From positions 186,001-250,000 of the forward strand of contig NBIV01000004.1 of the NCBI GenBank assembly GCA_003194525.1: a stretch of 64,000 nucleotides of DNA, given 5' to 3'. A program made the position numbers and the translations under genes. This stretch comes from Gracilariopsis chorda. Its lineage: Eukaryota > Rhodophyta > Florideophyceae > Gracilariales > Gracilariaceae. The notes beneath the pieces were generated by a model that did no database searches, had not been told where the DNA came from, and worked only from the letters and a program-made list of their open reading frames with translations. Below, piece by piece: positions 1,927-26,400 of the stretch (its first letter is position 1; every line of letters starts with the position of its first letter).

Positions 1927-2847
1927 TTAATGAAGCTTCCTTACTAATGCATCAAGTACAGCTAGCATCCCCTTTCGTTGTTCCATCGCGCTGCGCCTTT
2001 CCTCCCTGTACATGGCCGCACGCTTGACATCAAGTTCGATACGGGGCTGGTCGAGCGAGAGATACTTCGCATCGTCTTCCTGTTGACGCAGTGCCCGAGC
2101 GTCGTTTCGCTCCGCAACGCGCTACTCGAACGCAAAGCGCTCCTCTTCCAGGCCCACGCGTTTCGCCTCCAACTCGCGCCTCGCAACAATGTGCTCCTTC
2201 ATCAGGTCCTTCCCCTCTTTTTCCGAGTCCACCACAACCGCCCGCTTCTTCTCAGGCTTTTGGAACTTAGCACTCTCCTCCAAGCTCTTCCGGGCAACCG
2301 CCTTCTACCTAATGTCCTCCCTAGCGGCCCACAGTCGCTTTTCCAGCTCGCTTCGTTCGTCCCGCTCGGTGCAACATCTATCATCCACCTCGTCTATGGC
2401 CAGCATTATGTCGTCCAGGAGCGTCCCCGTCTCGCCCCACTCCTCGATAATTCCAGAGGCAACAGCGTTGTTACCCACAGCGAGGCGGTGACTCGAGATG
2501 ACCTTCTTCAGGCGGTCACTCAACGTCTTCCACGTCGGGGTGCACACGACAGCAAGACCACCAGACGAAGTGGGGGAAAAAAAGAGAGCAAGCGCTTCTT
2601 CCAACCGTGCCTGCGCCTCGTCATGCGGAGCGATGTGAGCGTCGAGAGCCTTGATTGCTTTCACTAAGAGCACGTAACACCCTGCGGAGAAGTGAATGCG
2701 CTTTTTGCGTCCGCTTCCAGGGGCAAAAGTCACAGCAGGCGCGGCTGACGGGTCGGAAAAGGAAGCACGAGATGTTGTGCTAGGCGCAGGAAAAGTGCTC
2801 CTCGAAAGGGGCAGTGGGCTGCCGGGACGAACCAAGGGGGTCGCCAT
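1927..2847 (-). pseudogene. Myb/SANT-like coiled-coil protein, Harbinger partner type, two stops
   Basis: The upstream part of the frame lacks an ATG, so I take the Met at 2847 as the start. The product would be about 306 residues: a Pro/Ser-rich leader, a Myb/SANT-like region (about residues 50-150, around TPTWKTLSDRLKKVIS and SGIIEEWGETGTLLDDI), then a long charged helical tail rich in Glu, Arg and Lys (about 155-300), probably coiled coil. TAG codons at 2305-2307 and 2122-2124 break an otherwise continuous frame. Similar proteins accompany Harbinger-type transposases in many eukaryotes, where the Myb-like partner helps bind the transposon ends. The tail resembles the gene at 31.5-32.0 kb. 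It converges on the transposase fragment at 1440-1792. Confidence 0.6.
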
Positions 2848-3164
2848 GTCTGGTCGCTTGACGGCAGTGAGCCGGGAGAGGGGGCACCCACTGTTTGGCG
2901 ACAGGGACGTCTCTCTTTTGGTACTGAGACGGGGGGTGGTGTAGAGGATGCTTTTTCCTATTTCGCAAAGAGGCTGTCCAAGCGAAAAATGAGCTAGCTT
3001 CAGAATCAAATTACGTCTTAGTTTCCCGACGTGTGAAACGTTTCACTCAAAACCTATCTCATGTAAAATCACGAGGTTTGCGTAATACCTCTACTGATAT
3101 CAATCCCCTACTTCCCGAAAATTCTAACCTCTACAGTACTGGCCGATTTGGGGTTCATGCTGTC

Positions 3165-3237
3165 GCTTCGCTGAAGCCACGCGGCAGCGTGGCCTGTCAA
3201 CAATCTTGTCTCGCTCCGCATGGCTCCAGCGGAGCGA
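3165..3237. repeat. Three GC-rich hairpins in tandem
   Basis: Three palindromes occur within 73 bp: 3165-3177 (5-bp stem, 3-nt loop), 3177-3192 (6-bp stem, GGCA loop) and 3211-3237 (9-bp stem, 9-nt loop). A run of five T follows at 3241. They resemble the hairpins near transposon ends, but no element boundary could be fixed. The surrounding 2850-3405 holds no recognisable gene. Confidence 0.6.
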
Positions 3238-3283
3238 CTCTTTTTGCGTGTTGTACGCATTTACCGCAAAACACATCGTGGAT

Positions 3284-3358
3284 GTAAGACGACTGGGCTA
3301 CAAAAGTGTCCCGCCAGACACTGATGCGCGCTTGTCCAGCGATACTTGTAGAGAGCTT
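3284..3358 (+). repeat. 75-bp direct repeat, copy 1
   Basis: This begins GTAAGACGACTGGG and ends with TGTCCAGCGATACTTGTAG. A closely similar copy in the same orientation is at 5221-5296. The pair brackets the Tc1 element but does not abut it. It begins like a splice donor and contains a CAG, so an intron remnant is possible; a short dispersed repeat is equally likely. Confidence 0.65.
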
Positions 3359-3740
3359 TCACGAGCGTTGTCGGAACCGAGTTTGGATGAACGAATCAGC
3401 TTATACAGTCCCTGAAATTCCAATAAATCTACCAAGCCACTGGCCTTGCTCGTGAAGAGTAAGGCCGATCAACGGTGGAGTAGTGGGTCTGAGCGTAAAT
3501 ACTATTACAGTTAACGGCACGAAGAAGGCCAAAAGTGCAACGTAGACACTAGTAACAACTTATGTAGACTATACAATGTGAAATGCGAAATAGATCCACG
3601 AAATTCAATGAATTCAAACACTTGTTTACTGCACTTTGGCGCTCTTTTTTGCCGTTTGTAAATGACACCGAGCCTACTAGAATGACACCAAACGGTTACA
3701 CAGTTCTGAACAAAGAACGTCTAAACCACAGTTGCAAAAA

Positions 3741-4700
3741 ATGACCCGCGGCAAAGCCCTTACGGACAGGGAAAAGGCATCATTGTAGCTCGACATCACG
3801 AGCAAGTCAGCGAAAGGAACATTGCAGAAGCTATCAAACGCTCTAGAGGAGCCGTGCAAAATGTCCTAAACAACTCAAACAAATCCAGCCGACAGTATTC
3901 GCGAGCTAATAACCGAAAGCTTACGAAGAAAACAGAACGGCGAATAGTTGGCAAAGCTCTAACTGGAGAATTCAGTGCAAATGAAATTCATCGAGACATG
4001 CAACTCCCCGTAACAACTCGTCGAGTACAGCAGATACTTCACAAAGTTCCACACCTGAAGTAAAAAAATATGATGAAAGGCTCCTACACGAAGGCGGAAC
4101 ATAAAATTAAACGTAAAGAGTTTGCTAGAAAATGCATTCAGTTTGGGGCTACTGATTGAAAGAAAGTTATTTTTGTAGATGAGAAAAAGTTCAATTTGGA
4201 CGCCCTCGATAGGAACTGTATGTATTGGCACGATTTACGTACCGAACCAAGATGGTTTTCTAAACGGAATATGGGAGGTGGATCTGTCATGGTTTGGGGA
4301 GCTATTTCTTACTAAGGTGCGCTGAAATTACTGAAATTGAATGTTTATCAGAACTTTACCGACTATGTGAAACTATTTTAAGAGAATATTTTATCTTTTG
4401 CTGCAGAACCACTAGGTGAAATATGGACTTTCGTGCACGATAGTGCATCTATTCATTGTTCTAAGCTTACAAAAAATTGGATTGTTCGCAAGAAAGTTGT
4501 TTTTTACAGTGGCCGGCTCATAGTATGGATTTGAATTTTATGAAAAATGTGTTGGGGTCAAGGGTAAGTGACGTATATCAAGGTTTTAAGCAGTTTGATA
4601 CTGTGGGCGAGCTTGGTGCTTAAATCGAATCAGTTTGAAACAATATCAAGGAGGCGTTTATACGGAAACTTTACTGTTCTATCAATTATTGTCTCTTATG
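3741..4700 (+). pseudogene. Tc1/mariner transposase (DD34E), decayed
   Basis: An ATG at 3741 opens MTRGKALTDREKAS, then the frame shifts. The helix-turn-helix region is readable from about 3790 to 4060. The catalytic part shows the first Asp in VIFVDEKKFNLD (codon 4178-4180), the motif SVMVWGAIS, the second Asp in FVHDSASIH (codon 4439-4441), and the end motif WPAHSMDLNFM. The third acid, normally Glu before N-V-W, is Lys here (4543-4545). The second-to-third spacing is 104 nt, one short of the 105 nt expected for DD34E, so a single base is missing, probably in the T run near 4500. Several stops also interrupt the frame. The enzyme would have cut and pasted the element at TA sites. It is inactive. 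Confidence 0.85.
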
Positions 4701-4918
4701 CGTGCTAGAAGCAAATGGTGGTCGTTCAGGCTATTGATTGTGTTGTTTTGTCTACAAATTTGTTTTTGGACTTACTGAATTTTGTGGATTTATGCTAAAT
4801 ATCATATTGTAAAGTCTACATATGTTGTTGTTTGCGTTTTACTTTGTCTTTTTGATACTACCAATGCAAAAACTCTACTCTTGTACATGTTCTGAGCTAC
4901 TCAACAGATCCTTACTGT

Positions 4919-4939
4919 CCTTGCTCTTCACGAGCAAGG
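4919..4939. repeat. Hairpin in the right Tc1 terminal repeat
   Basis: CCTTGCTC and GAGCAAGG form a perfect 8-bp stem with a TTCAC loop. An inverted, one-mismatch copy lies at 3444-3464 in the left terminal repeat. Confidence 0.7.
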
Positions 4940-4977
4940 CCGCTGGTTGGTTGGACCTATTTGAATTTCGGGCAGTG

Positions 4978-5332
4978 TCGTGAGCTCCATACTCCCCGGT
5001 GAAACCAGGTGGAGCCGAAGCGAGGCGTATGTAACGTTTTGACGACGTGTTGTGTAGATGTGTAGATGTGTACATGTGTAGGTGTGATTGTAGTGTAGAA
5101 GTGTAATACTCCCCGGTGATCGGTGTTACTTCGTGCGACGGAAAGTGCGGAGCAGAGGGAATGGCGACTCGTGAGAATCGACCTGTGTACCACAGCGGCA
5201 GCGATGAGGGTCCATAACCTGTAAGACGACTGGGCGACAAAAGTATGCCCGGCCACACACTGGTACGAGCTTGTCCAGCGATACTTGTAGTGAGCTCCCG
5301 CAGTGGACATCCTGAAAACCGTTGATGCTCCG
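4978..5332. repeat. Low-complexity stretch and 75-bp repeat copy 2
   Basis: 5044-5100 is a degenerate GTGTAGAT-type simple repeat. It is flanked by two direct copies of ATACTCCCCGGTGA (about 4988 and 5106). 5221-5296 is the second copy of the 75-bp repeat first seen at 3284. No gene is apparent. Confidence 0.6.
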
Positions 5333-6712
5333 CTACAACAACACGCCAATCAGTCGCTCCAAGTCCTCCGAGCTCTCCAACCTTGTCTTCCTTCTCAGAA
5401 CGCACAGCCTCCATCGCAGCCTCTCTCCAAGCTCTCTCTGCTCCTTGCGCTTCACCTTCTTCCCCTTCGGCCGCATCTGCCTCCTCACCTCCTCCACCCC
5501 AAAAGCCTCCGACACCTTTACCCTCTTAACCCCCCTGTTCCACTTCCCCACTCCCACCAATACCCTCTCTAGCCGCTCAAACATCCCTTCCTCCTGCCCC
5601 TTTAACGAAATCTCCAACTCATCCAACCTCTCCCCACACTCCTCCAACAACCCCTCCATCTCCGCCCACTCCATGCTCACCCGCACCAATCCCAGCTTCC
5701 GCACCTCTCGCGCCGCCCGCACCACCTGTCTCAACACTCCGTCCTCCACCACCGCGTATTTGCCCCTGCGCCGCTTGCCCGTCCCATAAACCGCACGACT
5801 CCAGTCCAGCCGCAGCGCCTCCAGTTCGGGCAACCCCTCCACCAGCGCGGGCAACCCACATTCCTCCCCTACCTTCACGCCGATCTCCAGCCGCCTCAGC
5901 CGCGTGCACGCCCTCACAATCCCGATATCCCCTGCATCCAGCGCGTCCATCGTGCAGAGCTCCGTCACAGCGGGGGCCAGGCGCTCGGCGTGGAACACGG
6001 CGTCCGTCACACCCGCGCGGATCCGCACGTCCTGCAGGCCGCGCAGCATCAGCAGTGCCTTGCGGCGCGGCGCGTGGTCAAGCGTCACGGTGCGCAGCGC
6101 GCCGAGGTGCGGGAGCAGCGCCCAGAAGACGGCGTGCGAGCGGTCACGGGTGCACGAGGCAGCAAAGGTGTGCAGGTCGGGGCAGAGCGCAGGTATGGAG
6201 TTGGGCGAGGTGGGGTCGGCGAGGGGAGAGGCGGCGAGAGAGGTGCGCAGGGAGGGCGCGTGGCAGTAGAGCGTGAGGGTGGAAAGCGGAAGGGCGCGCA
6301 GAGCGGCGAGGATTCCCGGGTGGCTTGCGTCGCGCTGGATGATGAGCTCCAGTGACTCGACGCAGGCAGAGATAGTGAGGGCGGTGAGGGCGGCGGGATC
6401 GTCGAAGACGCGTACGTGGCGGAGTGTTGGGGCGGCGAGGAGGGTATAAAAGGCGGGGTCCGGGGAGTGGGCGCAGAGGTCACGGAGAGTGTGGATGGTA
6501 GAGGAGAGGAGGGCGGCCTCACGGGAGAGGCCATGCGAGGAAGGGGTGTCGAGGCTGTGATTGACGGCAGCTAGGACAGCGCGGCGGAGACGGGGGGAGG
6601 TTTCAGCGAAAGAGAGGGCATGGGGGGTGAGACAGCCGTGGGGAGAGAGGTGGATGGCGATGCGGATGAGGAGGGAGTGCGGAAGGGTGTCGAGGCGTGG
6701 AGGAGGGGTCAT
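5333..6712 (-). CDS. F-box/LRR-like protein, likely host gene
   Basis: This is a long, uninterrupted, GC-rich frame of 459 codons from the ATG at 6712. An in-frame ATG at 6907 would add 65 residues of Pro/Ser-rich sequence; I prefer 6712 because the folded region starts right after it. Residues about 8-50 (LDTLPHSLLIRIAIHL, then an Ala/Arg-rich helix) resemble an F-box. From about 100 onward the protein has repeated Leu-rich strand-and-helix units (LRTVTLDHAP, LRRLEIGVKVG, LEALRLDWSRAV, LDELEISLKG), as in leucine-rich-repeat folds. The C-terminus is Lys/Arg-rich (RPKGKKVKRKEQR). Proteins of this design usually pick substrates for SCF ubiquitin ligases. The open frame and high GC, unlike the decayed AT-rich flanks, argue for a real intronless gene. 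The F-box call is by eye and tentative. Confidence 0.7.
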   Translation of the reverse strand: MTPPPRLDTLPHSLLIRIAIHLSPHGCLTPHALSFAETSPRLRRAVLAAVNHSLDTPSSHGLSREAALLSSTIHTLRDLCAHSPDPAFYTLLAAPTLRHVRVFDDPAALTALTISACVESLELIIQRDASHPGILAALRALPLSTLTLYCHAPSLRTSLAASPLADPTSPNSIPALCPDLHTFAASCTRDRSHAVFWALLPHLGALRTVTLDHAPRRKALLMLRGLQDVRIRAGVTDAVFHAERLAPAVTELCTMDALDAGDIGIVRACTRLRRLEIGVKVGEECGLPALVEGLPELEALRLDWSRAVYGTGKRRRGKYAVVEDGVLRQVVRAAREVRKLGLVRVSMEWAEMEGLLEECGERLDELEISLKGQEEGMFERLERVLVGVGKWNRGVKRVKVSEAFGVEEVRRQMRPKGKKVKRKEQRELGERLRWRLCVLRRKTRLESSEDLERLIGVLL

Positions 6713-7013
6713 TTGGAGGGGTGCAAGGGGACGGAAGAGGGGGACGCGGAAGGGCGCGTGTGATGGGGATCGGAGGGAGGGGTGAGCGCGTCGAGAGGAG
6801 GGATGAAAGTGGAGAGAAAATGGCGGACTTTCTTGGTAATACACGAGACTCGAGGAGGAGCGGAGGGTCTTGGGGAATCGATGCGCATCAGATGGCGAAG
6901 AGTTCATTGTTGCTTTCGACCTGAATGACCTTTTCTGACACGTGGGTGCGGAACACGTGGGTGTGGCATTGCAGGGGTACTGTACAAGGAGGGTAATTAC
7001 TTGCACACTTGCA
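6713..7013. promoter_or_regulatory. Probable 5' region of the F-box/LRR-like gene
   Basis: The coding frame stays open upstream to about 7006, but only GTG and the ATG at 6907 could start it. The stretch is GC-rich up to about 6900 and then becomes mixed. No TATA box is clear. Confidence 0.25.
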
Positions 7014-7420
7014 CAAAGGTACAGGTGAGAACCGCAACTAGTGTCTATCGCACCGCTGACCTCATATTATGAGGTCAAAACAATCAACTTAACTTTTAAT
7101 TTTAGTTATTTTTGATCCGATTTTTTCGCCTTTTGTAGTTTGTATAAGTTACGCAACCTGTTTTGTATAGCAAAAATTCTAAGCCTCTGTTGTTAATGCT
7201 CGGTAAGAAGCAGAAACATAAGACAACCAGATGGTTTAGTATAGATGTCCTTGAAAAATATGTCGAATTTACTACAGAGCCTCAGAAAATTGCCTTTTTT
7301 GATATCAAAAATGTACTTTTGAATCAAAAACACCGTTTCTAATGCGTGTATCAAAGTTTCAAAATCTTCAAAAAATAGTCATTTCGCAACATTACATCTG
7401 GGCGGATAGACACTAGTGTG
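7014..7420. repeat. Possible MITE with short inverted ends
   Basis: ACTAGTGTCTATC-GC at about 7037 is matched in inverse by GC-GGATAGACACTAGT at about 7400-7416. The interior is AT-rich and noncoding. The outer left flank, 7019-7043, repeats in inverse beside the Tigger-like element at about 13,980-14,008. No transposase is present. Confidence 0.4.
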
Positions 7421-8160
7421 GACCTGTAAAAATCATCTTTCACGGGAAACGTCAAGGACGGGTGTTGAGATTCTTTCCGTGACAATTTCCACGTTTTTCT
7501 TGCCAAAGATTTGGGGAAAATTTAGCATAGTATACATACTTTTTACAACCCCAAAACTTTATTCATTAGAAACGGTACTGACACGTAAGCTGCATTGCGT
7601 TCCATGCAAGCCAACCGGCAGCCGCTGGCATGATATAAAGAGCTTCACAAAAAAATTAAATATTTGCCAGTTCCTTGCTTCAAACTCAAATAATTTCTAC
7701 TCATTAATTTGCGAAATTTATCACTGGCCTGATTCATTTTAATTTCATGACATAGACTCCGAAAATAATAGTTTTAGCTGCTCATTGTCCTCCACAACTA
7801 CAACTCTGCTTTTTCTTGAAAAACTCCTGTCCTGACTTTTGCAGCTTAACTAACAACAGCTCTTTAATGTATGTAATAGTTTCAGCCGCATTTTAACGCG
7901 AAAAACCATGCGCAAAACTGTGGTGCTTGCTCCCGTCACGGCCGCAACGCTTCTCAGCCGCGCCGATCGACCACGCTGTCTTACTGCGCCCGTCCTCTTG
8001 CTGCAAGCGTCCCGCTGTCAACGTCACTTCTTCCATTACACATCATCTTTCATCAAAAAAACCTTTTTCTTTTCCCTATTGCGTTCTTTACACCAACATG
8101 GCGCCTTCCTACTCGCTACGGAATTTTGCGTTCGAGTTCTCGAGCAGTTTACTTTTTTTG
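7421..8160. other. AT-rich interval, no gene recognised
   Basis: Only short frames without known motifs occur here. The last 40 bases run into a pyrimidine tract and CAG that abut the coatomer-like sequence, so the end may be old intron sequence. Confidence 0.4.
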
Positions 8161-9088: not shown

Positions 9089-11230
9089 TTACTCAGCAAG
9101 AAACACATCCATCGTCGACGAGTCTATAAAAGACAAAGTGGCGTCATTTACATCCTCCCGTTCCAGCTCACCCTCAATCTCTTCGCCTTCCGGTAGTTCC
9201 CCACTATAAGATTCTAGCATAGTGCTAGCTGATTGCATTTCAATTTCAATCGCCGTACTCGCAGGCCATATCATGTCTCGTTGCAGTCTTGTAGCTCCAA
9301 CAGAAGCTATCTTTCTTCTGATTTGTAGCCCAGTATTAAATTCACAGACGACCATCTTGTTCACTTTCTCCAGATGCAAACGGTTGCGGATAGAGGTCCG
9401 TATCCGGGCTTGCAAACTGAAACTTCTTTTAACTGAAGAAGAAGATGGACTCACGCACAACACCCGTAGCGCAAGCAATCTCAAAAAAGGCCATCCTTTG
9501 TTTTGAATCCAGTACAGCCCCGGAACAGTGCGGTATACGAAAAAAAGATGGCCAGTTCCTTCGTGATCCACCTGCTGCTCCCAAGACATTCGGGTACATT
9601 GGAGGGCTACAAATAGTTGCTCAACCGCAGCTTTCTCACCCCCTATTCTTTCCAGCTTTTGCGTTTGCGGAAAAACATCGGAACGAACAAACTGGAGCTT
9701 TTGCTCCATTATCTGAGCTTGATAGAGCGAAATGTCCTCCTTGTAACTACGAATGTATAAAGCATACGACACGAAATGTAGAGATGTCAATAAAGGAATA
9801 CGGCGAACACGGCCGTGAACCCGAGCATCATAAACATCCATAACTTCCTGTTTTCTTTCAAGCGTAAAATACGTCGTCAGAGGGAGTGGAGATAGTTGGC
9901 AATGCAAATTGCGGGTCATGGGAGACACTTCAGAGATATACGACGACTCGTCTTCAAAATATCTTAAGTACTGACGGACGACTCTGAGAATGTGATATAT
10001 TTCAATGCATTGATCATAAAGGGAGTCGTCTGTTACTGCGAAGGTGAGTATTGCTCTTCTTACCTCGTTGCGCGTTCCAAAAAGATTGATGTCAAAGTCG
10101 TGAGATTCAACGAGCTTCTTGTAAAGTTTTTGCGCCTTAAAAACGACTGCATCATAGCTTCAGAAGTTGCAAACCGCGTAGACGCCTGTTTCAAAGTGAT
10201 AACTGCCATGCAAGGTGGCAAAACACGAGAACAGTGGTCAAACTCCTTTGTGCCTGTGACCCACCCACTGTCTCGCACCGAAGCATTGTGTAATTCTTGA
10301 AGCTCTTTGAAGCGAAAGCAAAGCTTCGGTCGATCGCGTAAGTCACTCATCAACTCAGAAACAGTGCACAGAATCTCTGAGATCCATTTCAAACTACCAA
10401 TTTCCTGCATGAGCAAATTTGCGAGATGTGTCCAGTGTTGGTTTGGTGTCATGAAGTTGAACATCTGTGCCTTTTTTTCTTTAGCACTGACACAAACCCT
10501 GGCATTGTCGCTTGTGATACCACCGACCTTTTTTATATTCCCGACGTCTGCCATTGTTTCCGTGACAAATTTGGCATAAAAATCAGCATCGCACTTCTTT
10601 GAGCCAGTATATATCGAGCGCAGGAAAAAGGTTTGCCTCGCCTGATCAAGCCCAGTGATGAAAAGCATCACGTTAACTACTTTCTCTGAGTTCCCATCTG
10701 ACCACCCATCAAATATCCAGGTGTCATAAGTGTGGGACAACGACTTTTCCATACAACATTTCACATGAGCGAGCATATTAGAATAATAGCAGTCAAGTCC
10801 TTCTCCTTCAATTTTCAGAACGCTTGGAACCTCTTGAACAATCTTGGGGCTCAAAAGCTTTATAAATTGATACAACTGATCCTCTCCTTCTCTTCTGCTA
10901 AGCACCGAAAAATGCAGCACATGAATAATAATCAGAGAGGTGAGCAACTCCTTCAGTCTTGATACCTTGAGAAACCAGTCATCGCTTCTACCACTAGAAT
11001 CATCCCTTCGGCGCTTCTCTGATTTGAGCACTTTTCTCAACTCCATCGTTCCATGTGAGCTCTGAGCTGCCGAGCCAGATGACGTTTCACCTTCCGCACA
11101 CATGACTGCAGAACACCGAAGCACAGCGATTTCCCCCCTAACCTGCGGTAGTGTTCCGCAAAATGATTCAGTTTCAAAAGGCGTTCTTTCACCGCTTTGG
11201 ACGTGCTTTTCCACTCAAGCAGATGCTTCC
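9089..11230 (-). pseudogene. hAT-superfamily transposase
   Basis: The frame open to 10060 on the minus strand carries a DUF659-type core: TWIFDGWSDGNSEKVVN (first Asp), GGITSDNARVC (second acid block), then NQHWTHLANLLMQEIG. A frameshift between 10060 and 9928 leads into the C-terminal part. There FLRLLALRVLCVSPSSSSV and RTSIRNRLHLEKVNKMV match the hAT dimerisation domain that carries the catalytic Glu. N-terminal sequence near 11080-11150 has Cys/His pairs in two frames, possibly a decayed BED zinc finger. An acidic tail ends at 9089. hAT enzymes excise by hairpin formation and leave 8-bp duplications; I could not find matching ends or a duplication around this copy. Confidence 0.75.
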
Positions 11231-15184: not shown

Positions 15185-15187
15185 ATT

Positions 15188-15202
15188 GGGGCTTTCCAAG
15201 AA
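15188..15202 (+). repeat. Harbinger terminal inverted repeat, left
   Basis: GGGGCTTTCCAAGAA directly follows target-site ATT and is identical in inverse to 22807-22821. With a short gap, weaker similarity (CACTCTGAGAGA against CACTTGAGAGA) extends inward. Confidence 0.8.
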
Positions 15203-15283
15203 AAGCCACTCTGAGAGAATGACAAAGTTATAGCCAATGAGCTCCTATAGAATGGAACCGCACTCGCTGAAAGTTTCTCAGTA

Positions 15284-15310
15284 TGGAGTGGGTATGTCGA
15301 CCCCACTCCA
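15284..15310. repeat. Subterminal hairpin, left
   Basis: TGGAGTGGG and CCCACTCCA form a perfect 9-bp stem around a 9-nt loop, between the terminal repeat and the transposase start. It may be a transposase or Myb-partner binding site, or part of the promoter. Confidence 0.6.
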
Positions 15311-15423
15311 AAACGACACATCTCGATTTCTACGTAAGTTACACAACAGATAATCTCATTTTATGAATACAAGCAGCAACCTAACACCTCCCAATCGCTC
15401 TCTCCATCAACCTCGCTTTGACC

Positions 15424-16701
15424 ATGACCATCAACATTACCGTAACCAACGAATTGTGTTCTTCATGTTGTCAATACAGATTTCGCATCGTTCCGCTTCC
15501 GATCTTTTCACTGAACATGATTCCAGAAACCATACAATCCTTGAACGCCTTCGTATTGTGCCAGTGGTGCTTAATGTACACAAGCAAGCTGCTAGAATCC
15601 GAATATTGTCTAACATCACGTCGAATTGTTTCCAAGCCGTTGAACTACACAAGAAACGGAATTAAGCGTGCGATTCACAGCAGATGTAACACTGATTGGT
15701 ATCAACTGTTATCATGCGGCGGCGATGTTGACTTTATCGTCAGCATCAATGTACGAAAATCTGACTTTCTCAAAGAACTTCTTCCACAGTTTGAAAATAT
15801 GCGCGCACGAATGGTTGCTCAATCTCCGTACACCAAATCAGCTAAACAAAGAGGTCGTCGTGGTTGTATGCGATCGGTTGACATACTTGGTTTAGCACTG
15901 TGGTATCTGAAAACCAGCGATAGGATGTTTACACTTTGTCCCACGTTCGGATTGGTCCCAACCAGTGTGAGCGACTGGCTTGAATATGGAATGAGCGTTC
16001 TCTTTGCACTGTTGAGTTCGGGGGCTGTTAGAAATGCTAGAATAATATGGCCGTCAGTGAGTGAAATGGAGTGCTCTTCACAAGCGCTCGCGAAAGCAAA
16101 GCCGAATATTGCGATCTACCTGAAGGGTGTGTTTGGGGTTGCAGATGGCGGAAGATTTCGGTGTGCAAAGTACGATAATGCGAATCTCCAAAACGCACAC
16201 TTTGAAGGGTACACGCAAAGTACCGAGGTCACTAACCTTTTCGTGTGGAACTTCTTCGGTGAAATTGTTCATGCTGCAGTTAACTACCCTGGGTCATGGC
16301 ATGATAGTAAGCTGGCCGGAATTTCAGGGCTTTACTGGCCGAGGTTGTCGGACGAAGAGACACCACCAGGCTACGCAATTCTCGGGGATAGTGCGTTCAC
16401 CACCCACCCGAACGTGACCAACGCGAAAATACTTCGTTGTCGTAAGATTAATGAAGCTGGACAAGCTTCCAAGTCCCTGGAAATGGCAGCGGTGGATTGT
16501 GTGCTTCAAAGTCTGTATCCTGCGTACAGACAATCTGGGGAATGGGGAGTAAATGCGCTCAAAGCGCCGTTTCGAAGACTGACCACAGTGCTTCCGGCGG
16601 ATAGCTACAAACGGTATAGGATTATTGCCTTGTGTTGCTATTTGATGAATTACCGAACGCGTACCATCGGCCACAACCAAATTAGGTCCGTGTTTAGCTA
16701 A
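15424..16701 (+). CDS. PIF/Harbinger transposase, open frame
   Basis: An uninterrupted frame of 425 codons from the ATG at 15424; the two upstream in-frame codons lack an ATG. The C-terminal half is a DDE_4-type nuclease: first Asp in GVFGVADGGRFRC (residue about 241), LQNAHFEGYTQSTEVTNLF, then NYPGSWHDSKLA, second Asp in GYAILGDSAFTTHP (about 322) and Glu in YRQSGEWGVNALKAPFRRL (about 373). All three catalytic acids are present. The N-terminal part has a basic stretch (SAKQRGRRGC) and a helix-rich region that could bind DNA. PIF/Harbinger transposases need a Myb-like partner to reach the element ends; one is encoded at the other end. The intact frame suggests recent activity or selection. 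Real introns or sequencing errors cannot be excluded. Confidence 0.85.
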   Translation: MTINITVTNELCSSCCQYRFRIVPLPIFSLNMIPETIQSLNAFVLCQWCLMYTSKLLESEYCLTSRRIVSKPLNYTRNGIKRAIHSRCNTDWYQLLSCGGDVDFIVSINVRKSDFLKELLPQFENMRARMVAQSPYTKSAKQRGRRGCMRSVDILGLALWYLKTSDRMFTLCPTFGLVPTSVSDWLEYGMSVLFALLSSGAVRNARIIWPSVSEMECSSQALAKAKPNIAIYLKGVFGVADGGRFRCAKYDNANLQNAHFEGYTQSTEVTNLFVWNFFGEIVHAAVNYPGSWHDSKLAGISGLYWPRLSDEETPPGYAILGDSAFTTHPNVTNAKILRCRKINEAGQASKSLEMAAVDCVLQSLYPAYRQSGEWGVNALKAPFRRLTTVLPADSYKRYRIIALCCYLMNYRTRTIGHNQIRSVFS

Positions 16702-16722
16702 CGATATCTTCTTGGGTCACAG

Positions 16723-17289
16723 ATGCCGACTTTGTTTTTTGTATTGTCTTCAGAGTTTCGAACTGCACTTGATCGCGTAAAAAGGAAATGCCCACGCGAT
16801 GCGGAGAGAAGCACTGATAGCGACGGAGACTATGATCGCGTTTCAGATGAAATATCCGAGAAGCGACCCGTTAAGGGAAGAAACATAGACAGAGGACACC
16901 GTGACTCCCAGGTCGAATACGATCGACATACAGAAAGCGGACTACGTTCAACGAAAGGTGACGAGGAGCCCAAGCACGAAGCGGATGGCCTCCATGACAG
17001 CGAGCGCGATCGAAAGGTTGAGCCCGCAAGATCGTGACGACTGCCTCTCTCCGATACACCTCAGACTTCGCAGGAGTCTGATAACAGCTTGAAAGACCAA
17101 GTCCAGCCCAAAGGCAATCGCGATGCAAAGAACGGCCATAATAGCGACTGGTCGGTACCTGAAAAAACAAAGCAACATTCTCCAAAGTTCCGTTCCGTTG
17201 CGGTGAATCTTTCTGGCGCACCAAAGGTTCCAGAAAGCACTGGTCTAGATCGTCCATCCCCCGGTGGCAGGGCCACCTTGGGCGCATAG
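16723..17289 (+). pseudogene. Charged low-complexity protein fragment
   Basis: Immediately after a T-rich tract ending in TCTTCAG, one frame runs 189 codons with a single TGA at 17035-17037. It is very rich in Asp, Glu, Arg and Lys (DRVKRKCPRDAERSTDSDG, RGHRDSQVEYDRHTE). No family is recognised; such composition is common in nuclear RNA-processing proteins. The pyrimidine tract and AG suggest an exon with its splice acceptor, so it may be another captured host fragment. It lies 20 bp beyond the transposase stop. Confidence 0.35.
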
Positions 17290-17676
17290 AGACTGACGGC
17301 ACTACTGACAGAATTCTGCAGAGGGTGTTGATCAATACTGAAGGGATTTCACGTCAGTGCCTGGAGGTAGTTACCAGGTCGGTGTGAGCATCCCCGGAGA
17401 GGCAGACACATCTGGCTCTGCTACGGCAATCCACGGGCCGCGGGACGGGATATACATAACTGCCATCGGGAGGGATCTTAGTGAGTAGGGGATAAATGGA
17501 GGTTTGCCGGTTATATACGTAATGCAGAGGGTGAAGCACAAGAACGAAACAAAACAGTGCATGGGTTCACGCATGACGAAGAAGTTTGAGTGCCGGGGAT
17601 CGTCGCACTTGAAGCAAAACGCTACGGCTCATGCATTAGAGCTATAGAATCTACGTGAAACGGTACTGTACCACGC
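17290..17676. other. Gap within the Harbinger cargo
   Basis: A short minus-strand frame (about 17371-17574) begins with a hydrophobic segment resembling a signal peptide (FVSFLCFTLCITYI) but has no recognisable domain. Confidence 0.25.
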
Positions 17677-18354
17677 TCATCTGATCCTCTGAATAAGGAA
17701 CCTGCCCACTATTCGTCGTTCAAATCGGTCAGCTTCGTCTTCAACCAAAGGCGCAATGTTCTTTTGTGGTTCAGAAGGCTTATCAAATGATGCGTCCGCT
17801 GGGATCGTGAACTCCTGACCATCGTCAGTGCCAGCATCAGAAGCAATCAGAGTGCCAAAATCACCAGCAACGAATTTTACGTCGCGCAGCATGTTCCGGT
17901 TGTTGGTTTGAACAATCCAGTTGGGTAACGGGGCAATCATGCCCAGCATCATGATGAACGGGTGCGAGCAGTCAACGGGATAGGACAGGGTGGTGTACTT
18001 TCCAGGTAACGTGGGTCCGTTGGCCGCGGCCACATGCAGCACTCCATGGCGCTGACTGCGCAGGTTCCTGGCCATCGTCACAAATCAGCTATTGTCACCA
18101 GTCTCGGCGATCGGCCCCACTTGTCGGGACGCGAATCCGCGACCTGTATGGAAGGAAATGCGGTGGGAGTGCGAAGCACTAATCAACGGAGAAAACACCA
18201 GCCCACGTTGCGGGATAAGTATGCCAAAGTTCTTCGGAGTCAGCAAGTCGTGGAAGCTGACTCTGTAGATAGCTCTGCTACTGCAACGCCCTTCTACAGG
18301 CACAACATGGACCAAAGTGAGGACTAGAAAAAGGGCAGTTACTTGACGCATCAT
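17677..18354 (-). pseudogene. Secreted spondin-domain protein, one in-frame TGA
   Basis: The ATG at 18354 opens a classic signal peptide (MMRQVTALFLVLTLVHVVPVEG). It is followed by a spondin-N-like domain across nearly the whole protein: YRVSFHDLL, LVFSPLISASHSHRISF, IAETGD, then MIAPLPNWIVQTNNRNML and ASDAGTDDGQEFTIP, ending about 25 residues before the stop. The block M-I-A-P-x-P-x-W and the D-A-G-T-D-D-G motif are diagnostic. The frame is continuous over 225 codons except for a TGA at 18085-18087, just after IAETGDNS. Spondin domains are extracellular adhesion or matrix modules. The TGA makes this a likely recent pseudogene; a sequencing error is possible. It lies inside the Harbinger element, opposite in direction to the transposase. 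Confidence 0.75.
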
Positions 18355-19509
18355 GGTGAGAGTTGAGAGTTTGGTATGGAGTGTTTGAAGTCAGTGAAGC
18401 TCAGTAACGGTTGGTGGGTGGAATGATGCTGATGGTTCGTCATGGAGGGAGCAGTGGCTTCATGGAGCCCTTAAGTACCCTGGGGATGCCCAGTCCCATC
18501 GCAGAGACGAAGCAGGCGTTAAAGTGTAAACGTTCATAGACTAGCGTCCAATACCTTCCTTCTTCGTTGGAACAGTTGCAGTGGTAAGAAGGTGCATCGC
18601 ACAACATGTGGCTGTGGATTAGCCAGGACCGTTTCGTATTTGTAGCTCAGCCAGAACCGTTCAGGCCCTACTCGAATCCTTGGGGCTTGTAGAAGGTGGA
18701 TCATCTCAGATCGCTTAATACTCATGCGCACATCTGGGAAACGCACGGAAATCTGAAACATCCTGTGGTTACAGGGCGCTGATAGTGCATGATGTTCATG
18801 CTTACACACTTGAGCAGGAGTAGTGTTGAATGTGTGTGGAGTATCCTTTCCGAGTGAAGAAGTGGCGGACACCTATGATCGAACTTTGGACTGTTGATGA
18901 AGAAAGAAGTCGATGAAGGGGGTATGACGGTGGAAGAAGGCTTTAACGACTGCGTAGTAGTCGCGCAAACGCTTGAAGAAGAACGGCGAAGTGGACTTTG
19001 CCCGTATCAACCTCAAAAGGTAACCATTTAGCGTTCTCCTTAAGTGAAATTCACGAGTTGCCTTGTTCATCGATAGAAGAACGCGGTGCGAGAGGCGAGA
19101 TTCGTGACACGATGGGGCATTGAAACAGCCACCGCGAATCTCATGCTTTTTGGAGCAAAACGTGTGACACAGGGCCAGCCGCCACGCAGATCAAACTGCG
19201 CACGCTCTGCTCAGAATCTGGCCCAATCACGGAATCACAGCTATTCTTCTTAACGTTGTACAAGATCTGACAACTTGGTCGACGAATTTGAACCTCTTCA
19301 CGTTTCTCACGTTTGACCATTTACGCGCCAAAGTCACGGATGTGCCGTCTCAGGAACAACTCAGCAGATTCCCGGCGCAGCCTCACGCAGCCGCCGTTTC
19401 TGTCCACGGATAGCGTGGGGTAACAAACTACTAAGCATTTTGCCCACATCGTATTCCACCTGGTCTCCACCAGTGACCGTCGCTCTTCGCGATGGAGCAC
19501 GCAGAGCAC
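18355..19509. other. Interval between the spondin and GCN5 genes
   Basis: 18355-18540 probably holds the spondin gene's upstream region. The rest has only short frames; a plus-strand stretch near 18,890-19,030 is acidic (GMTVEEGFNDCVVVAQ) but unrecognised. Confidence 0.35.
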
Positions 19510-21009
19510 CATGCAGCCGCTGATTCGTCGCGGAAAGAGTAGTTTGAAGATGGCCCGCTGTTTGAGGAGGAGGTATTAGAGGAAGGTCATTTTGACGCTG
19601 ATAACTTCACACTGGGTTCACCGTCTGGGCGAAGACGTTCAGCTGTTATTCGTACCGCGTCTGAAGCCGGTCACGGGGATGCGCAGCCTCTACCTGAGTC
19701 GCTATTTAAGGTCACGGAGCCGGCCGCTCGCCAACCTGTCATTGAAGTGCCTGTTTCATTGTCTGAACCGCCGTTTTTCGCGCCGAGTCACACCGCCACT
19801 CGAGTCGTACCAATCTCAGAAGCTTTTCTTCACGATGAAACCCCGTTTAACTTGTTACCAATAACGCCGGTTCCGCATTGCAAGAAACCAATTCGCCCCC
19901 CGAAGGGAACCCACGTCCTTCCTACAGAGGATGTTCTCGGCTGGGATTCACAGCATCCGTATATTCTACGCTGGGCACGCATTATGCAGCAAGAGCACCG
20001 TCATAGTGTTGTGTTCCATTGCTTACGGAATGATTCCAGCCCACAAAACCTCTTCCTGCTGCTTTGTCTTCAGAAGCTCTTCATCAAACACCCGCCCAAC
20101 ATGTCATCGGCCTATGTCACCCGATTGTTGTTTGACCCGAACCATGAGTCGTTCATAGTTGTGAAGACGACACTCGGAGAGTACGAGGTTGTTGATGGGT
20201 GTTGTTATCGCTCTTTTTTGGAGCGGCGCTTTACGGAGATTGCGTTCTTGGCCGTTTGGGGTACTCAGCAGGTTCGCGGCTACGGCGCTCGCTTGATGGA
20301 CTATAACAAGGAGCGTGTCAATCAGCCGAGGCTTACGCATGTTTTGACCTGTACTGACAACAACGCCGTTCCTTACTTCGCAAAGCAGGGCTTCAACACT
20401 GAGATTTCCCTGCCGCAGCACCGATGGCACTCTTATGTCAAGGCATACGACGGTGTCACGCTCATGGAATGTGTGCTTCTTTCTCAATTTAACTACCTCA
20501 ACGTCCCGATGCTGCTCAAGGCTCAGAAGATGGGTGTCGTCGAGAATTTGAAACAAGTATCCGCGTCTCACATCGTCCATCCTGGGCTTGACGGGTGCTC
20601 AAAGAAGGGAATATGCGTGCGCGATATCGCCGGTCTAAGACACCAAGCGGGTTTTGAGAGACACCAGAGACGCAACTCCGAGCAAGAACGGGCGGAAAAA
20701 CATGTTCATCATGCGCACTTGCAAAGGGTCCTGGAAGAACTGAAGAAGCACGAGTGCGTGTGGCCGTTCTTGTGCCCCGTCGATACGGAGGATACCGGTG
20801 CGAACGATTAATATGACGTTATCAAGAACCCTATGGACTTTTCCACGATGCAAGAGCGATTTGACGACGGTTGGTTCTAAGTGACCAAGGAAATCTTTAT
20901 CGCGGACTTCAACCAACTTGTTGCAAACTGTATCGAGTACAACGGCAAACACCATTACATCACAGCATTGGCTTTGAAACTGAAACGGCTGTTCATGAAT
21001 ATAGTTTAG
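19510..21009 (+). pseudogene. GCN5-type histone acetyltransferase, bromodomain broken
   Basis: A single frame runs from about 19510 to 21009. A TAG at 19540 precedes a 422-codon open stretch; the first ATG within it is at about 19747. The catalytic domain is intact by eye: AYVTRLLFDPNHESF, CCYRSFLERRFTEIAFLAV (catalytic Glu, residue 164 from 19747), QVRGYGARLM (acetyl-CoA loop) and LTCTDNNAVPYFAKQGF. The C-terminal bromodomain reads YDVIKNPMDFSTMQERFDDG and FNQLVANCIEYNGK but is cut by TAA at 20809-20811 and 20878-20880, both where Tyr is usual. GCN5 acetylates histone H3 in SAGA-type complexes. The copy could still make an acetyltransferase without a bromodomain. It lies inside the Harbinger element and is probably a captured duplicate. 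Confidence 0.8.
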
Positions 21010-21160
21010 CACTGGTACTTACTAACTCCGATTGGACATGTATCATCTTGTGCAGCAAATGAACGAAAACCTACTCCACGTGCTACTTTTGCAACGGCTG
21101 CTGCGCACGCTATAATCCCCTGCCTGCCTTCTCCTACAGAGGTATAGGAATCATAGGGGC

Positions 21161-21670
21161 GTGATCAGCGTACACGAGTACAAGACGACGGGTGGGTACA
21201 AGGCAAGCTTGAGCATATCAAGATGGATTCGATTCGTTTTCACCTGCAGCACTGGTTTTGAGTTGTGGGCATCATTCTGCGATACAGGGTCTATCCATTG
21301 CAACCGCTCTCCACGCTCATTACATTTCAATGACCAAGCTCTTGAAACTGGAGCCGAGTTCTTGAGGCACCATAAGGAAGGGTTGAAGGAGAAACAAAAG
21401 TCCCTCGACAGTTACTGGGGCGTGCAACCGCTCACAGCATTCACAACATATCGTCAAGCTTGTGCCCAGATGAGAGATGGATGCGCTAAAGTTGAATTCA
21501 TCCTGACCGTAAGAGCTTCAAAATCAAATGTTGCACCGGAAGCTGAAGATCTTGTCCTGGGATTTCTAAATGCACGCAGATCATTGCGATACAAGGTTAA
21601 CCTTCCTAAGATTTTACCTGAACTACACTGTTCACCACACCTTTCACTCATAGACTACGACGTTCACTGA
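21161..21670 (+). CDS. Unknown open frame in the Harbinger cargo
   Basis: 169 codons are open, but the frame has no ATG until about residue 106, so it is an exon or a decayed gene rather than a complete one. No domain is recognised. The middle is charged and helical (FLRHHKEGLKEKQKSLDSY). It ends about 110 bp before the opposing Myb-like gene's stop. Confidence 0.25.
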   Translation: MISVHEYKTTGGYKASLSISRWIRFVFTCSTGFELWASFCDTGSIHCNRSPRSLHFNDQALETGAEFLRHHKEGLKEKQKSLDSYWGVQPLTAFTTYRQACAQMRDGCAKVEFILTVRASKSNVAPEAEDLVLGFLNARRSLRYKVNLPKILPELHCSPHLSLIDYDVH

Positions 21671-21778
21671 GCAATACCATTTTGTTCCTTATTCAGATAG
21701 TTTGAAATGAGCAACGCAGAAGTAAATATGTTTATGTATCATCTCCTTATGTTTCGTGCAAGGCTGTTACTGGGAGAT

Positions 21779-22528
21779 TTACATCTCACAGCCAGATCCG
21801 GATTCGTTATCCTCCTTGGACGTTTTCAGCATCTGTTCGATACTCGGAAGGGGTTCTGTCGGTGAAATAGGTCCAGCACGATTTGCTGGTAGTACCAAGT
21901 CTCTGAGTGCGCTGCGCAGCGCCCTTGATGTTTCTTTCTGTATAAGTTCCTTGATCATTGGCAGTGGTACGACACTGGACTCATTATTAACCGCGTGCTT
22001 CACACAATTGGCAACCTCTATCATTGTGGTAGTCATGACTTCCATATGCTTTCCAATATCAACCTGCATACGCTTGGCTAATGGAAGGCGACTGTCATCT
22101 GAAATTCTTCTTTTGCGCCTTTGCCCTAACACTCCTGTCGTATGTACGGCTCGTTGCATCTGCTCGTGTGAAGGCACAAGATTTCCGTTGTCATTACCAA
22201 GAGCCGTTGCTTGCGCTTTGGCCTGAATATCCTGGTATATTCGCTTCGCACGACGCACTTCTGGCTTGATGGTTGGGTCTCCTGTTTTCTTCCTCGTATA
22301 TGCAAGTTTATCAAACTTTTCTTTCAGACTGTCCAATGTTCTTGGAGGCCTTTCGTTGGTCTCCGCCCATTTGTTGAACCTCTCGGCTACAACTGCCCAG
22401 TGATTCCTACCCAAGGGTTCCACATATGCCACTAAGTCCAGCAAATACTCAACATCATCCGTGCTATAGTTGAGACTTCCTCTTCGAGAATGTTTTCCGG
22501 TCTCGCAGATTTCATCCACTTCGTCCAT
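21779..22528 (-). CDS. Myb/SANT-like DNA-binding protein of the Harbinger element
   Basis: An intact 249-codon frame from the ATG at 22528; an upstream ATG at 22654 would add 42 residues. After a basic N-terminus comes a Myb-like domain (about residues 18-105): NYSTDDVEYLLDLV, NHWAVVAERFNKWAE, RTLDSLKEKFDKLAYTRKKTGDP and VRRAKRIYQDIQAKA. The K-T-G-D-P and V-R-R-A-K blocks are typical of the DUF6818-type family found with transposons in fungi, oomycetes and algae. A nuclear-localisation-like RRKRRIS follows, then helical segments and an acidic tail. As the second Harbinger protein it should bind the element ends and help import or recruit the transposase. It faces the transposase from the other end of the element, and its upstream region contains the hairpin at 22657-22721. 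Confidence 0.75.
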   Translation of the reverse strand: MDEVDEICETGKHSRRGSLNYSTDDVEYLLDLVAYVEPLGRNHWAVVAERFNKWAETNERPPRTLDSLKEKFDKLAYTRKKTGDPTIKPEVRRAKRIYQDIQAKAQATALGNDNGNLVPSHEQMQRAVHTTGVLGQRRKRRISDDSRLPLAKRMQVDIGKHMEVMTTTMIEVANCVKHAVNNESSVVPLPMIKELIQKETSRALRSALRDLVLPANRAGPISPTEPLPSIEQMLKTSKEDNESGSGCEM

Positions 22529-22656
22529 TACGTCTTGTAATCTGTGAACGTTATAACGGTAAATGGTTAGCTGCCTGAAAGACGGAAAAGAATAGAATAC
22601 TGCGTATGCTTCTGAGCATGTTGACGCGTAGAAATGTCTTGAACGAAACTCCATAG

Positions 22657-22721
22657 TCTCCCTAGCGCACAAATGGCCATGCAACTTCGATTAAGGTATA
22701 GCCATTTGTACGCTAGGGAGA
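22657..22721. repeat. Subterminal hairpin, right
   Basis: Arms 22657-22677 and 22701-22721 match at 20 of 21 positions around a 23-nt loop. It sits between the Myb-like gene start and the right terminal repeat, in the same relative place as the hairpin at 15284. Confidence 0.75.
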
Positions 22722-22806
22722 TTCGCGTAGTGATCTTTTCTGACAGATGTAAGTGGCCAACATTTGGCAAGGACGTCTCCAAGTCTCTCAAGTGTCATTG
22801 TGTCCG

Positions 22807-22821
22807 TTCTTGGAAAGCCCC
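22807..22821 (-). repeat. Harbinger terminal inverted repeat, right
   Basis: Exact inverse of 15188-15202, followed by target-site ATT at 22822-22824. Confidence 0.8.
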
Positions 22822-22824
22822 ATT

Positions 22825-23496: not shown

Positions 23497-26400
23497 TTAT
23501 TTTAAGCCACAAAGCCATGTCAGTCTTTTCAGCGTGTCACAGACAACAGGCTTAGTAAATACGTTGGCAGCTTGCAATTCAGTCCTTATTGACTTCACGT
23601 CAATTAACTTGGTCTCCAACAGCTCTTTTAGGTGGTGATATTTCAGAGAGATATGCTTGTTCCTTTCCGAGACCTTTGGATTCTTCATGATCGACGTAGC
23701 AGTCGAATTCTCCATTGCTTTTGATATGGGGTACATTTGAAGATCATCCTCCAGGACTGTTTCGTTGCGTAATTCCCGGTAGATTCTACGCAACCAAGTT
23801 ACTGTTTTTCCACAATACGATAATGCAATATATTCTGCCTCTCCAGATGAAATTGTAACAAAGGTTTGCTTTTTGGTCGCCCACATCACAGGTGCTTTGT
23901 TCAACATTATTATTAATTCAGTCTTCATGGACCTGCCTTGGCCGCATTGAAGCGGGAAACGTGATTTCTAGCCTTGATGAGACCGCTAAGTACATCAAAG
24001 TATCTACCAGTTTCCGGTAGTGGCCATGTGCTCCAGATAAACCACGCCGTTTGTCCTCTTGACGTGCTGTGATGTCACATAGAGATGATAATGGATTCCG
24101 AGCAACGTTGGACTTGACTAGACCATTTTCTAGCAGTATCTTGTCAATATAACTTTTTTGTTGTACCTTTTTTCCGTTTTTGTCTCTCATGATGTCGAAT
24201 CCTACAAAACGTTTTGCCTTGCCAAGAATCTAAACCGTAAAGAGCTTCTGCATCCCTGACTTGAAGTCTTCCAGAAGAAATTGGGAGTTTGAATATGCCA
24301 ATAGGTCATCAACGACCACTACGATGGTCAAGGTTCCGCTGTTGGACTTATCTATATAGAGTTGGCTGTCTGTGCTAGACTGCTTGAATCCCTAGCGCAA
24401 TAGCTCCTTGTGCATTAGGCATCTCTAAAAATTTCCGGCCTGTTTTGTGCCGTGTATTGACTTTAGGAGCAAGCATACCTTGCCGGGAACAAATGATGAT
24501 CCAGAAGCGTTTTGGGGTTGTTCCATGATTAACGTCTCGTGTAGATCCCCCTACAGGTATGCGTTGCTAATATCCATGGCCTCCAGTAGCAGGCCTTGAG
24601 CTGCAGCCTTTGCCAACAAAAGACGAATTGTTTCAAATCGAGCAATCGGGACGTACAAGTTGTCTGGGTCGTAATCCAAGTACGGACGCTGCAAGTCACC
24701 CCGTGGTACGCAACGTGCTTTTGGTAAGATGCACGGAGAATTGGAGCTCAAAACTTTGCTAAGATCCACCATAGAAATGGCAAGGATTTCATGCCTGCTT
24801 TTCTATCAATCTGCTTCCAAGTGCCTCTTTCTACCAACGCATCGTACTCCCTGTCGATTGCTTCTGCCCATACTGGCATCACTTTAACTTCTTCAAAGCT
24901 CTCGGGGACTCTGCCATCATGCCCAAGGTCTTTGGATGGTGATTGTGCCACAGGGCAATAAGCAACAGGAGCATCTAGATGATTTTCATCATCCGCACCC
25001 ATGTTTTTCTCGCCTTCGTGTCTTCTGAAAGACGAGAAGTCCATAAGGTCTTGTATTGAACGAAGGGACTCCTTTGTAACCTTAACATCTGCCTCGTGGC
25101 ACTTTATTACTTGTCCCATGGATGGAATATCTATCCTTTACAGTGTCCGCTGGCTCTGCATCCCCACGAAGTGTCCAGAACTAAGGCGAGATAGGAACTT
25201 CTTACTTGTGAGGGATTCAGGCCTGTATATGAAAGGTTGGCCTTCTCGCCCGAGCTTCAGTAAGTTTGTGAAGTCGGGGTTTCGTCCGAACCATAATCTG
25301 TAAGGAACCCTCATTCCTGCTCGATGATTTGGTACATGGTTTCTTAAATAGTTAGCGTGAGAGATGCCTTCCTCCCAAAGTTCATGCGTTAGCTTGGAGG
25401 CGAACAGGAATGTTCTATCCATCTTCCACAAGTCTTGGATGACTTTCTCTGCTACGCTGTTCCATTGGTGTGCGTACGGTGGGGTGAACTCTACTAATAT
25501 ATCCTTCTCTACTGCGTATGAGATAAAGTCTTCGGACCTATTCTCACCCCCCCGTCAAGGCGAAAGCGGTACATTAGGTTAGGAGGTAGTTTGGTTTCCG
25601 CGCGAGCCTTGTACCAGCAAACAGATTCAAAGAACTGTGTCTTTTTACTTAGAAAATATATTGAGCTTGATCTCGTGTTGTCATCAATGAGGACTTGCAT
25701 GTACTTGGAACCTTGTAAAGAGGTCAGGTTAATGTATCCGGTGAGATAGATGTGCGTTAAAGCCAATGGTCTCTGCACTACGGAGTGTGAAAGGCGAAGA
25801 GGAACACGCTTGGCACCGGTTTCAATGCACTGAGTGCATATGACATTGTTGACTACGTCTGGGGAGAATTCTGATACGCCTTGACACAAGTCAATTCATG
25901 TCAAGAATTGATCTCAGCCAGGGTGTCCGAATTTCTCGTGCCTATCCTTGGCTCTATGGCCAGGTGCGTGTGTCGCGGCTTGTACCAGTGGTGGTGGTGT
26001 GGGGCTCGGTAAGGGATAGAGTCCGTCCCTCAGACTGCATTGTGGTATAAGTATGCACGTTGTGCAGTCTCTAATAAAGAAGCCTTTTGTGAATTGTACC
26101 TCGACATACGTCGCCAGGACGGATAAGGATACCAAGGTAAGGTCGAAGGTTTGGGTATGTCTGGCCGGTAAGATAAGTTCGGTTCCGAAAGGTAGCCTCA
26201 TTTTTCGGCACCCTAGGATCTCTGACTGGTGGCCGCAAGTGTTTACTGTTGGCGTAGGTCTTTGGCGATATTCCCAGAACCACCGTTGGGTTTTGATGAA
26301 AACATGACTAGCCCCAGAATCTATCCAGGTTGGAGCTATGTTATCGTGATGGAGTCTGGCATTAGCTAATGATATGAACCCGTGGTAGTGGTTCCTGTTT

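Follow-up and report, generated by a model that had tools for sequence, protein, structure and literature searches.

A 64,000-nucleotide stretch of the genome of the red alga Gracilariopsis chorda (contig NBIV01000004.1, positions 186,001 to 250,000; hereafter the window) carries a 7,634-bp element of the PIF/Harbinger type, termed E here, at window positions 15188-22821. We consider it highly probable that E is a cut-and-paste PIF/Harbinger-type element whose spacer between two convergent genes took up host DNA. Judged from sequence comparisons, it is a genuine transposon that captured pieces of three host genes and then spread with this cargo. We found E inserted as a 7,634-bp unit, cargo included, at three unrelated sites. 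Alignment to donor loci showed that host DNA was copied into it from contig C54 and, as divergence and nesting suggest, later from contig C64; in other family members this position is occupied by nested host blocks that differ from those of E. The genome searched spans 91.3 Mb in 1,081 contigs, abbreviated as C and a number (the window is C4:186001-250000); positions in E are window positions minus 15187.

E is bounded by perfect 15-bp terminal inverted repeats (TIRs; 15188-15202, plus strand, and 22807-22821, minus strand) lying inside exact ATT target-site duplications (15185-15187 and 22822-22824), just as the initial annotation of the window had described. Exact matches to the 15-bp end numbered 16 genome-wide compared to 0 for a reversed control; with up to 2 mismatches there were 235 matches versus 139 for the control, and weak end matches by themselves therefore mean little. 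Three end pairs were spaced by 7,634 bp, namely the window copy, C156:83988-91621 and C258:103518-111151. Pairwise comparison of these copies gives 21, 41 and 48 substitutions, spread across ends and cargo, without a single indel; the copies occupy unrelated sites, each with its own 3-bp duplication, with the same cargo and the same breakpoints. Similarity ends at the element borders, where C4 and C156 share 5-6 further matching bases and C4 and C258 share 1. Three full-length copies with the same cargo at unrelated sites mean that the cargo travelled together with the ends. The two further copies bear out the annotation's judgement that the terminal pattern is unlikely by chance and supply the second copy with these ends that it had called for.

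We examined ten members with both ends (C4, C156, C258, C7, C38, C203, C294, C227, C33 and C201), leaving out the end at C117:126685, which has just 198 bp of element beside it. Exact 3-bp duplications flank all ten (ATT in 3, ACT in 3, AAT in 4), giving ANT as the duplication sequence of this family; TWA is the usual PIF/Harbinger duplication in plants. Empty sites were sought by using the joined flanks of the ten insertions as query (40 of 415 candidates scored, 51 rows) and in a search with the three E sites only (40 of 163 candidates scored). Sites crossing the junction were found for six of the ten insertions. The empty form of C201 lies at C374:32620-32836 (217 of 217 bp, 100%), with three others at 84-88%; C374 may represent the alternative haplotype or have arisen by recent duplication. 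Empty sites for C7 (C7:151127-151344, 97%, and two others at 89-90%), C227 (C3:81336-81554, 90%) and C38 (10 rows, 88-96%) were also recovered, and for C203 24 rows cross the junction at 88-97% while 8 short rows stop before it. For C258 the ten-insertion search returned 1 row; in the E-only search all 34 non-self rows, at 90-91% identity, extend about 29-32 bp past the junction, and their matched length exceeds that of the query by a few bases; the other 6 rows are the sites themselves. An empty site breaking at the trinucleotide, which the annotation had expected, was thus found for these six members and not for the window copy or C156, which returned only their own sites; among the scored candidates there was likewise none for C294 or C33.

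Both element genes of E are open and convergent. The transposase frame (15418-16701, plus strand; 427 codons from a TTG, the first ATG being codon 3) matches DDE_Tnp_4 at 50.3 bits (cut-off 24.8). In an alignment of 34 sequences (E, C203, C7 and 31 of 58 protein matches), the acidic residues D243, D324 and E375, which we take to be the catalytic ones, are kept in 33, 34 and 34 sequences, consistent with the open DDE transposase that had been proposed. D296 is also invariant (34/34), so invariance alone cannot pick out a catalytic triad. The facing partner frame (21779-22684, minus strand; 301 aa) is open and convergent as annotated; its Myb-like label is only weakly supported, as the profile match is to DUF6818 (54.4 bits) and the Pfam Myb/SANT models reach 15.6-16 bits, under their cut-offs of 21.7 and 29.1.

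Several class features can be read from this structure. A Harbinger-type DDE transposase, 3-bp target duplications (in the ten members, plus AAT at C91 of a second subfamily) and short TIRs (15 bp and perfect; 21 bp in the second subfamily, with one mismatch at C91) place E in PIF/Harbinger. Like Pack-TYPE elements it holds host gene pieces between its ends, but these lack a transposase and the transposase frame is open in all three E copies. With host DNA, a transposase and a second ORF in several copies, E has the features of transduplicating PIF elements of the Pifvine-3 kind. Helitrons have neither TIRs nor a target duplication, whereas E as a whole has TIRs and is flanked by a 3-bp duplication.

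The cargo extends from the transposase stop (16701) to about 40 bp short of the end of the partner frame (21779) and is a mosaic to which two host loci contributed pieces of three genes; the annotation had correctly recognized the spondin and GCN5 genes and counted at least two. A fragment of an SR/KR-rich, 880-aa host ORF (16795-17248, plus strand; E 1608-2061) derives from C54:250785-251301 at 78% identity, and a second C54 piece (21633-21737, plus strand; E 6446-6550) matches C54:252605-252709, downstream of that ORF, at 87%; the 880-aa ORF has no Pfam match. Between them lie two blocks from C64, 17248-17517 (E 2061-2330; donor 106551-106820, 91.1%) and 17511-21630 (E 2324-6443; donor 101662-105801, 93.2%), which overlap by 7 bp where 749 bp of donor is missing. 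The larger block holds a spondin-domain gene (Spond_N; 17677-18354, minus strand) broken by 1 in-frame stop, a spacer, and a GCN5-like acetyltransferase/bromodomain gene (19492-21009, plus strand; GNAT domain within 19747-20811) broken by 3 in-frame stops with no indels. Similarity of E to C7, C203 and C38, at 88-90% identity, is confined to E 1-1513 and about 6552-7634. Because of the divergence and nesting of the blocks, we read the C54 piece as captured first and its middle as later swapped for the C64 block.

On C64 the spondin ORF (225 aa) and the GCN5-like ORF (GNAT plus bromodomain; 505 codons from the ATG used) are adjacent and both intact, the donor genes that the annotation had suggested looking for. 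At 51 residue differences between this donor and the element copy of GCN5, the GCN5 on C36 sides with the donor at 26, with the element at 1 and differs from both at 24; restricting the count to columns with at least 80% conservation among 66 outgroups (from 73 protein matches) leaves 20 agreements for the donor and 0 for the element. As the donor, not the element copy, agrees with the outgroups, residue polarity indicates that the spondin/GCN5 transfer was from host to element. The annotation's suggestion that the element captured its cargo is now well supported by copies, donors and polarity. Cargo-versus-donor dN/dS is 0.64 for GCN5, 0.95 for spondin and 0.53 and 0.53 for the methyltransferase and dehydratase genes of C203, as expected if the donor side alone is constrained. 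Most probably, what the window copy carries is neutral passenger DNA and not a working gene. The C64 donor of GCN5 (L023:2123-4027) is a divergent second GCN5, 58% identical to that on C36; none of the protein matches listed named it for G. chorda, the named GCN5 of the species being that on C36. Stretches about 74% like the captured spondin region occur several times across C64 and C251 and probably form a local array, the 93% copy on C64 being the donor.

Related elements carry other host DNA at the same place. The 6,787-bp element on C203 holds a gap-free 2,639-bp block from C499 (97.3%) with an open 401-aa methyltransferase frame, whose donor frame extends further upstream, and an open dehydratase frame; this block sits in an older block from C56 (91%) and replaces its middle. 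The dehydratase donor on C499 (BWQ96_10595) agrees with Gracilaria domingensis at 10/10 residue differences, and where 80% of 26 chosen outgroups share a residue, it agrees at 7 columns and the element at 0. A second copy of the methyltransferase/dehydratase cargo occurs on C117 (92%), and C7 is without 2,555 bp of it, its remnant being annotated as host gene BWQ96_00992. The 8,185-bp element on C38 combines C56 blocks with inserts from C176 (91%), C236 (85%) and C50 (94%, a DEAD helicase), the C176 insert having a 14-bp target duplication on its flanks; a second copy of this type on C148 (92-93%) has open transposase and DUF6818 frames. C33 and C201 (2,847 bp) have lost most of the transposase and carry WD40 sequence from C56:74251-75980 (95%), with four more copies on C194, C434, C604 and C444. 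The C56 donor stretches contain open frames, with no transposase or DUF6818 row among the matches listed.

A second subfamily carries the cohesin gene SCC3/STAG. Its element on C91 (137470-146005) has the 21-bp end GGGAGGATCNAGGAATTGACA with AAT on both sides, duplications having been read at C91 only. The SCC3 cargo recurs at 90-93% on C90, C17, C3, C35 and C248 (at least six with C91) and partially on C153; judged by the end pattern, these six elements measure about 8.5-9.4 kb. Transposase rows from this group, some of them partial, show 47-68% identity to that of E. SCC3 on C234 is 93% identical to the C91 cargo and is the presumed donor: the 1,579 bp compared lie within one open frame of 539 codons on C234, and the C91 frame stops inside the same stretch. 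Cargo-free members on C79, C283 and C511 are about 2.7 kb long with transposase and DUF6818 rows present; C514 is also bracketed at about 2.7 kb and has no transposase row among the matches listed. C9, C73, C46, C15 and C199 match both SCC3 flanks to identical borders (1155 and 5793 of L049), and none of the SCC3 rows falls inside them.

We next compared the spacer across the genome. Transposase matches comprised 102 rows, from which 63 loci were entered by hand with short derivatives and fragments omitted; 60 DUF6818 loci were entered for pairing, and 53 of the 63 transposase loci have a convergent DUF6818 match. The gap between the two genes is 2.1-6.1 kb at all 10 loci entered of the E subfamily (at least 75% identity). 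At 54-68% identity it is 494-605 bp in 6/16 loci and 1.6-6.8 kb in 10/16, and at 41-53% it is below 0.9 kb in 21/27 and 1.5-6.6 kb in 6/27, one of the latter being C17:395649 of the SCC3 group. Comparing E with C203, C7 and C38, dN/dS is 0.30-0.38 for the transposase and 0.30-0.37 for the partner (dS about 0.23-0.24), ratios indicating that both genes are constrained between lineages. A bolder proposal is possible but doubtful: that the spacer between convergent Harbinger genes is a standing cargo bay, loaded by repeated nested break repair in at least two subfamilies with both genes open, and that whole or near-whole host genes (methyltransferase with dehydratase, SCC3) have been spread this way, some being expressed as functional duplicates.

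We propose that the transposase and DUF6818 protein, from these or sister copies, would excise the element at its 15-bp ends and reinsert it, duplicating 3 bp of the target; two element proteins are required in the PIF/Harbinger superfamily (PMC2836001). Capture is by copying, as donors remain and spacers and genes of both strands are taken along. Cargo blocks meet sharply, either overlapping by 0-14 bp or separated by a few filler bases, and older cargo is replaced by newer. The likeliest route suggested by these features is copying during break repair, in which an internal break or gap would be repaired from unrelated chromosomal templates and rejoined at short stretches of homology. Insertions into the space between the two genes would persist because neither element gene is damaged.

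Several observations weigh against this account. No empty site was found for the window copy among the scored candidates, which returned only the occupied site itself. The transposase shows no clear constraint among the E copies (2 synonymous differences, and 4 and 8 nonsynonymous differences against the two others), and C203 versus C7 gives a dN/dS of 1.03; present autonomy of the element is for these reasons unproven. The partner gene has 1 stop in C7, 1 in C203 and 2 in C38, whose transposase also has 1. Finally, the capture mechanism is inferred from junction shape in one genome, with overlaps that are mostly short.

Other explanations fit the data less well. Fusion of two neighbouring elements, in which host DNA lying between them is enclosed, the inner ends decay and the whole then moves, is unlikely. 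PMC8903248 proposes this route for Pack-TYPE elements in every DNA superfamily that it studied, and C38, C203 and C33 have weak inner matches to the end at 3-4 of 15 mismatches. We rejected fusion because E has no inner ends: neither E nor C7 contains an internal end remnant at up to 4 of 15 mismatches. The cargo is moreover flanked by a single transposase gene on one side and a single partner gene on the other, and in both C203 and E newer cargo has taken the place of the middle of an older block. Separate insertion of the cargo after the element had landed, or its arrival in a nested element such as a Helitron, also seems improbable. It could give a 14-bp target duplication like that around the C176 insert in C38, but we rejected it since the three E copies share cargo and breakpoints at different sites; the donor blocks also match one or few host loci.

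The reverse direction, in which a transposon brought the spondin/GCN5-like locus to the host, is very improbable. The C64 gene is a divergent second GCN5 and the named one lies on C36, as such a history might leave, but residue polarity (26 to 1 and 20 to 0) led us to reject it. The C64 stretch has no transposase or DUF6818 match among the matches listed, and the C499 dehydratase has relatives at 85-86% in Gracilaria domingensis and Agarophyton chilense. Chance repeats or an assembly artefact have almost no probability: approximate end matches alone mean little, but the 16 exact matches against none and the three pairs at 7,634 bp argue against chance, and we rejected it on the two further full-length copies. 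The substitutions between copies and their unrelated flanks also speak against an artefact.

Gene capture by PIF elements is already known from grapevine, from maize and rice Pack-PIF and from Turmoil-1 of C. elegans. Ping/Pong-type two-gene elements have TIRs and a 3-bp duplication, as E does, and to our knowledge no host cargo, unlike E. They share with E the two element proteins (PMC2836001). The annotation's statement that known Harbinger elements usually hold just two genes was overstated, as PMC2528002 describes grapevine PIF elements with transduplicated host DNA. Pifvine-3, as presented there, resembles E in its superfamily, its transposase and second ORF, and its host exons and introns, some in several copies. 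Its cargo lies in a long 5' region of up to 3.5 kb, whereas that of the E family lies between convergent genes and reaches about 5 kb, with nested captures, several identified donors and a red-algal host. Pack-PIF elements of maize and rice (PMC8903248) share PIF ends, captured gene pieces and amplification with E, but Pack-TYPE elements are non-autonomous by definition, whereas both element genes of E are open, and those of one maize cluster are short (mean 402-535 bp); the C33/C201 group, at 2.85 kb with WD40 sequence and a transposase cut short, does resemble them. Turmoil-1, like E, has a Harbinger transposase and captured host coding sequence, but its two captured pieces lie in 760-bp terminal repeats of one full copy (PMC2572040).

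The open-licence literature searched, in the portions available, described no red-algal Harbinger cargo and no layered capture between two element genes. As far as the open literature shows, the red-algal host, the two open genes, the repeated nested capture into one spacer and the identified donors are new. Donors, empty sites, cargo-free sisters and layered captures stand side by side in one small genome, and together they make the order and manner of cut-and-paste gene capture directly readable. The G. chorda gene catalogue lists at least one transposon cargo piece, BWQ96_00992 on C7, among the host genes, and other cargo in it may be mis-counted likewise.

We also noted a third, compact Harbinger-like subfamily; three members examined have a 17-18-bp inverted repeat starting TGAGTGCAT at a spacing of about 2.5-2.6 kb, and their flanks show no clear 3-bp duplication. 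Elsewhere in the window, a 384-aa ORF at 10060-11214 (minus strand) matches DUF659 (52.5 bits), a domain common beside hAT-type transposases, and is probably another DNA transposon remnant. On visual inspection, an ORF at 23497-23928 (minus strand) looks like the RNase H end of a Copia polyprotein; its only match in Pfam is sub-threshold and unrelated.

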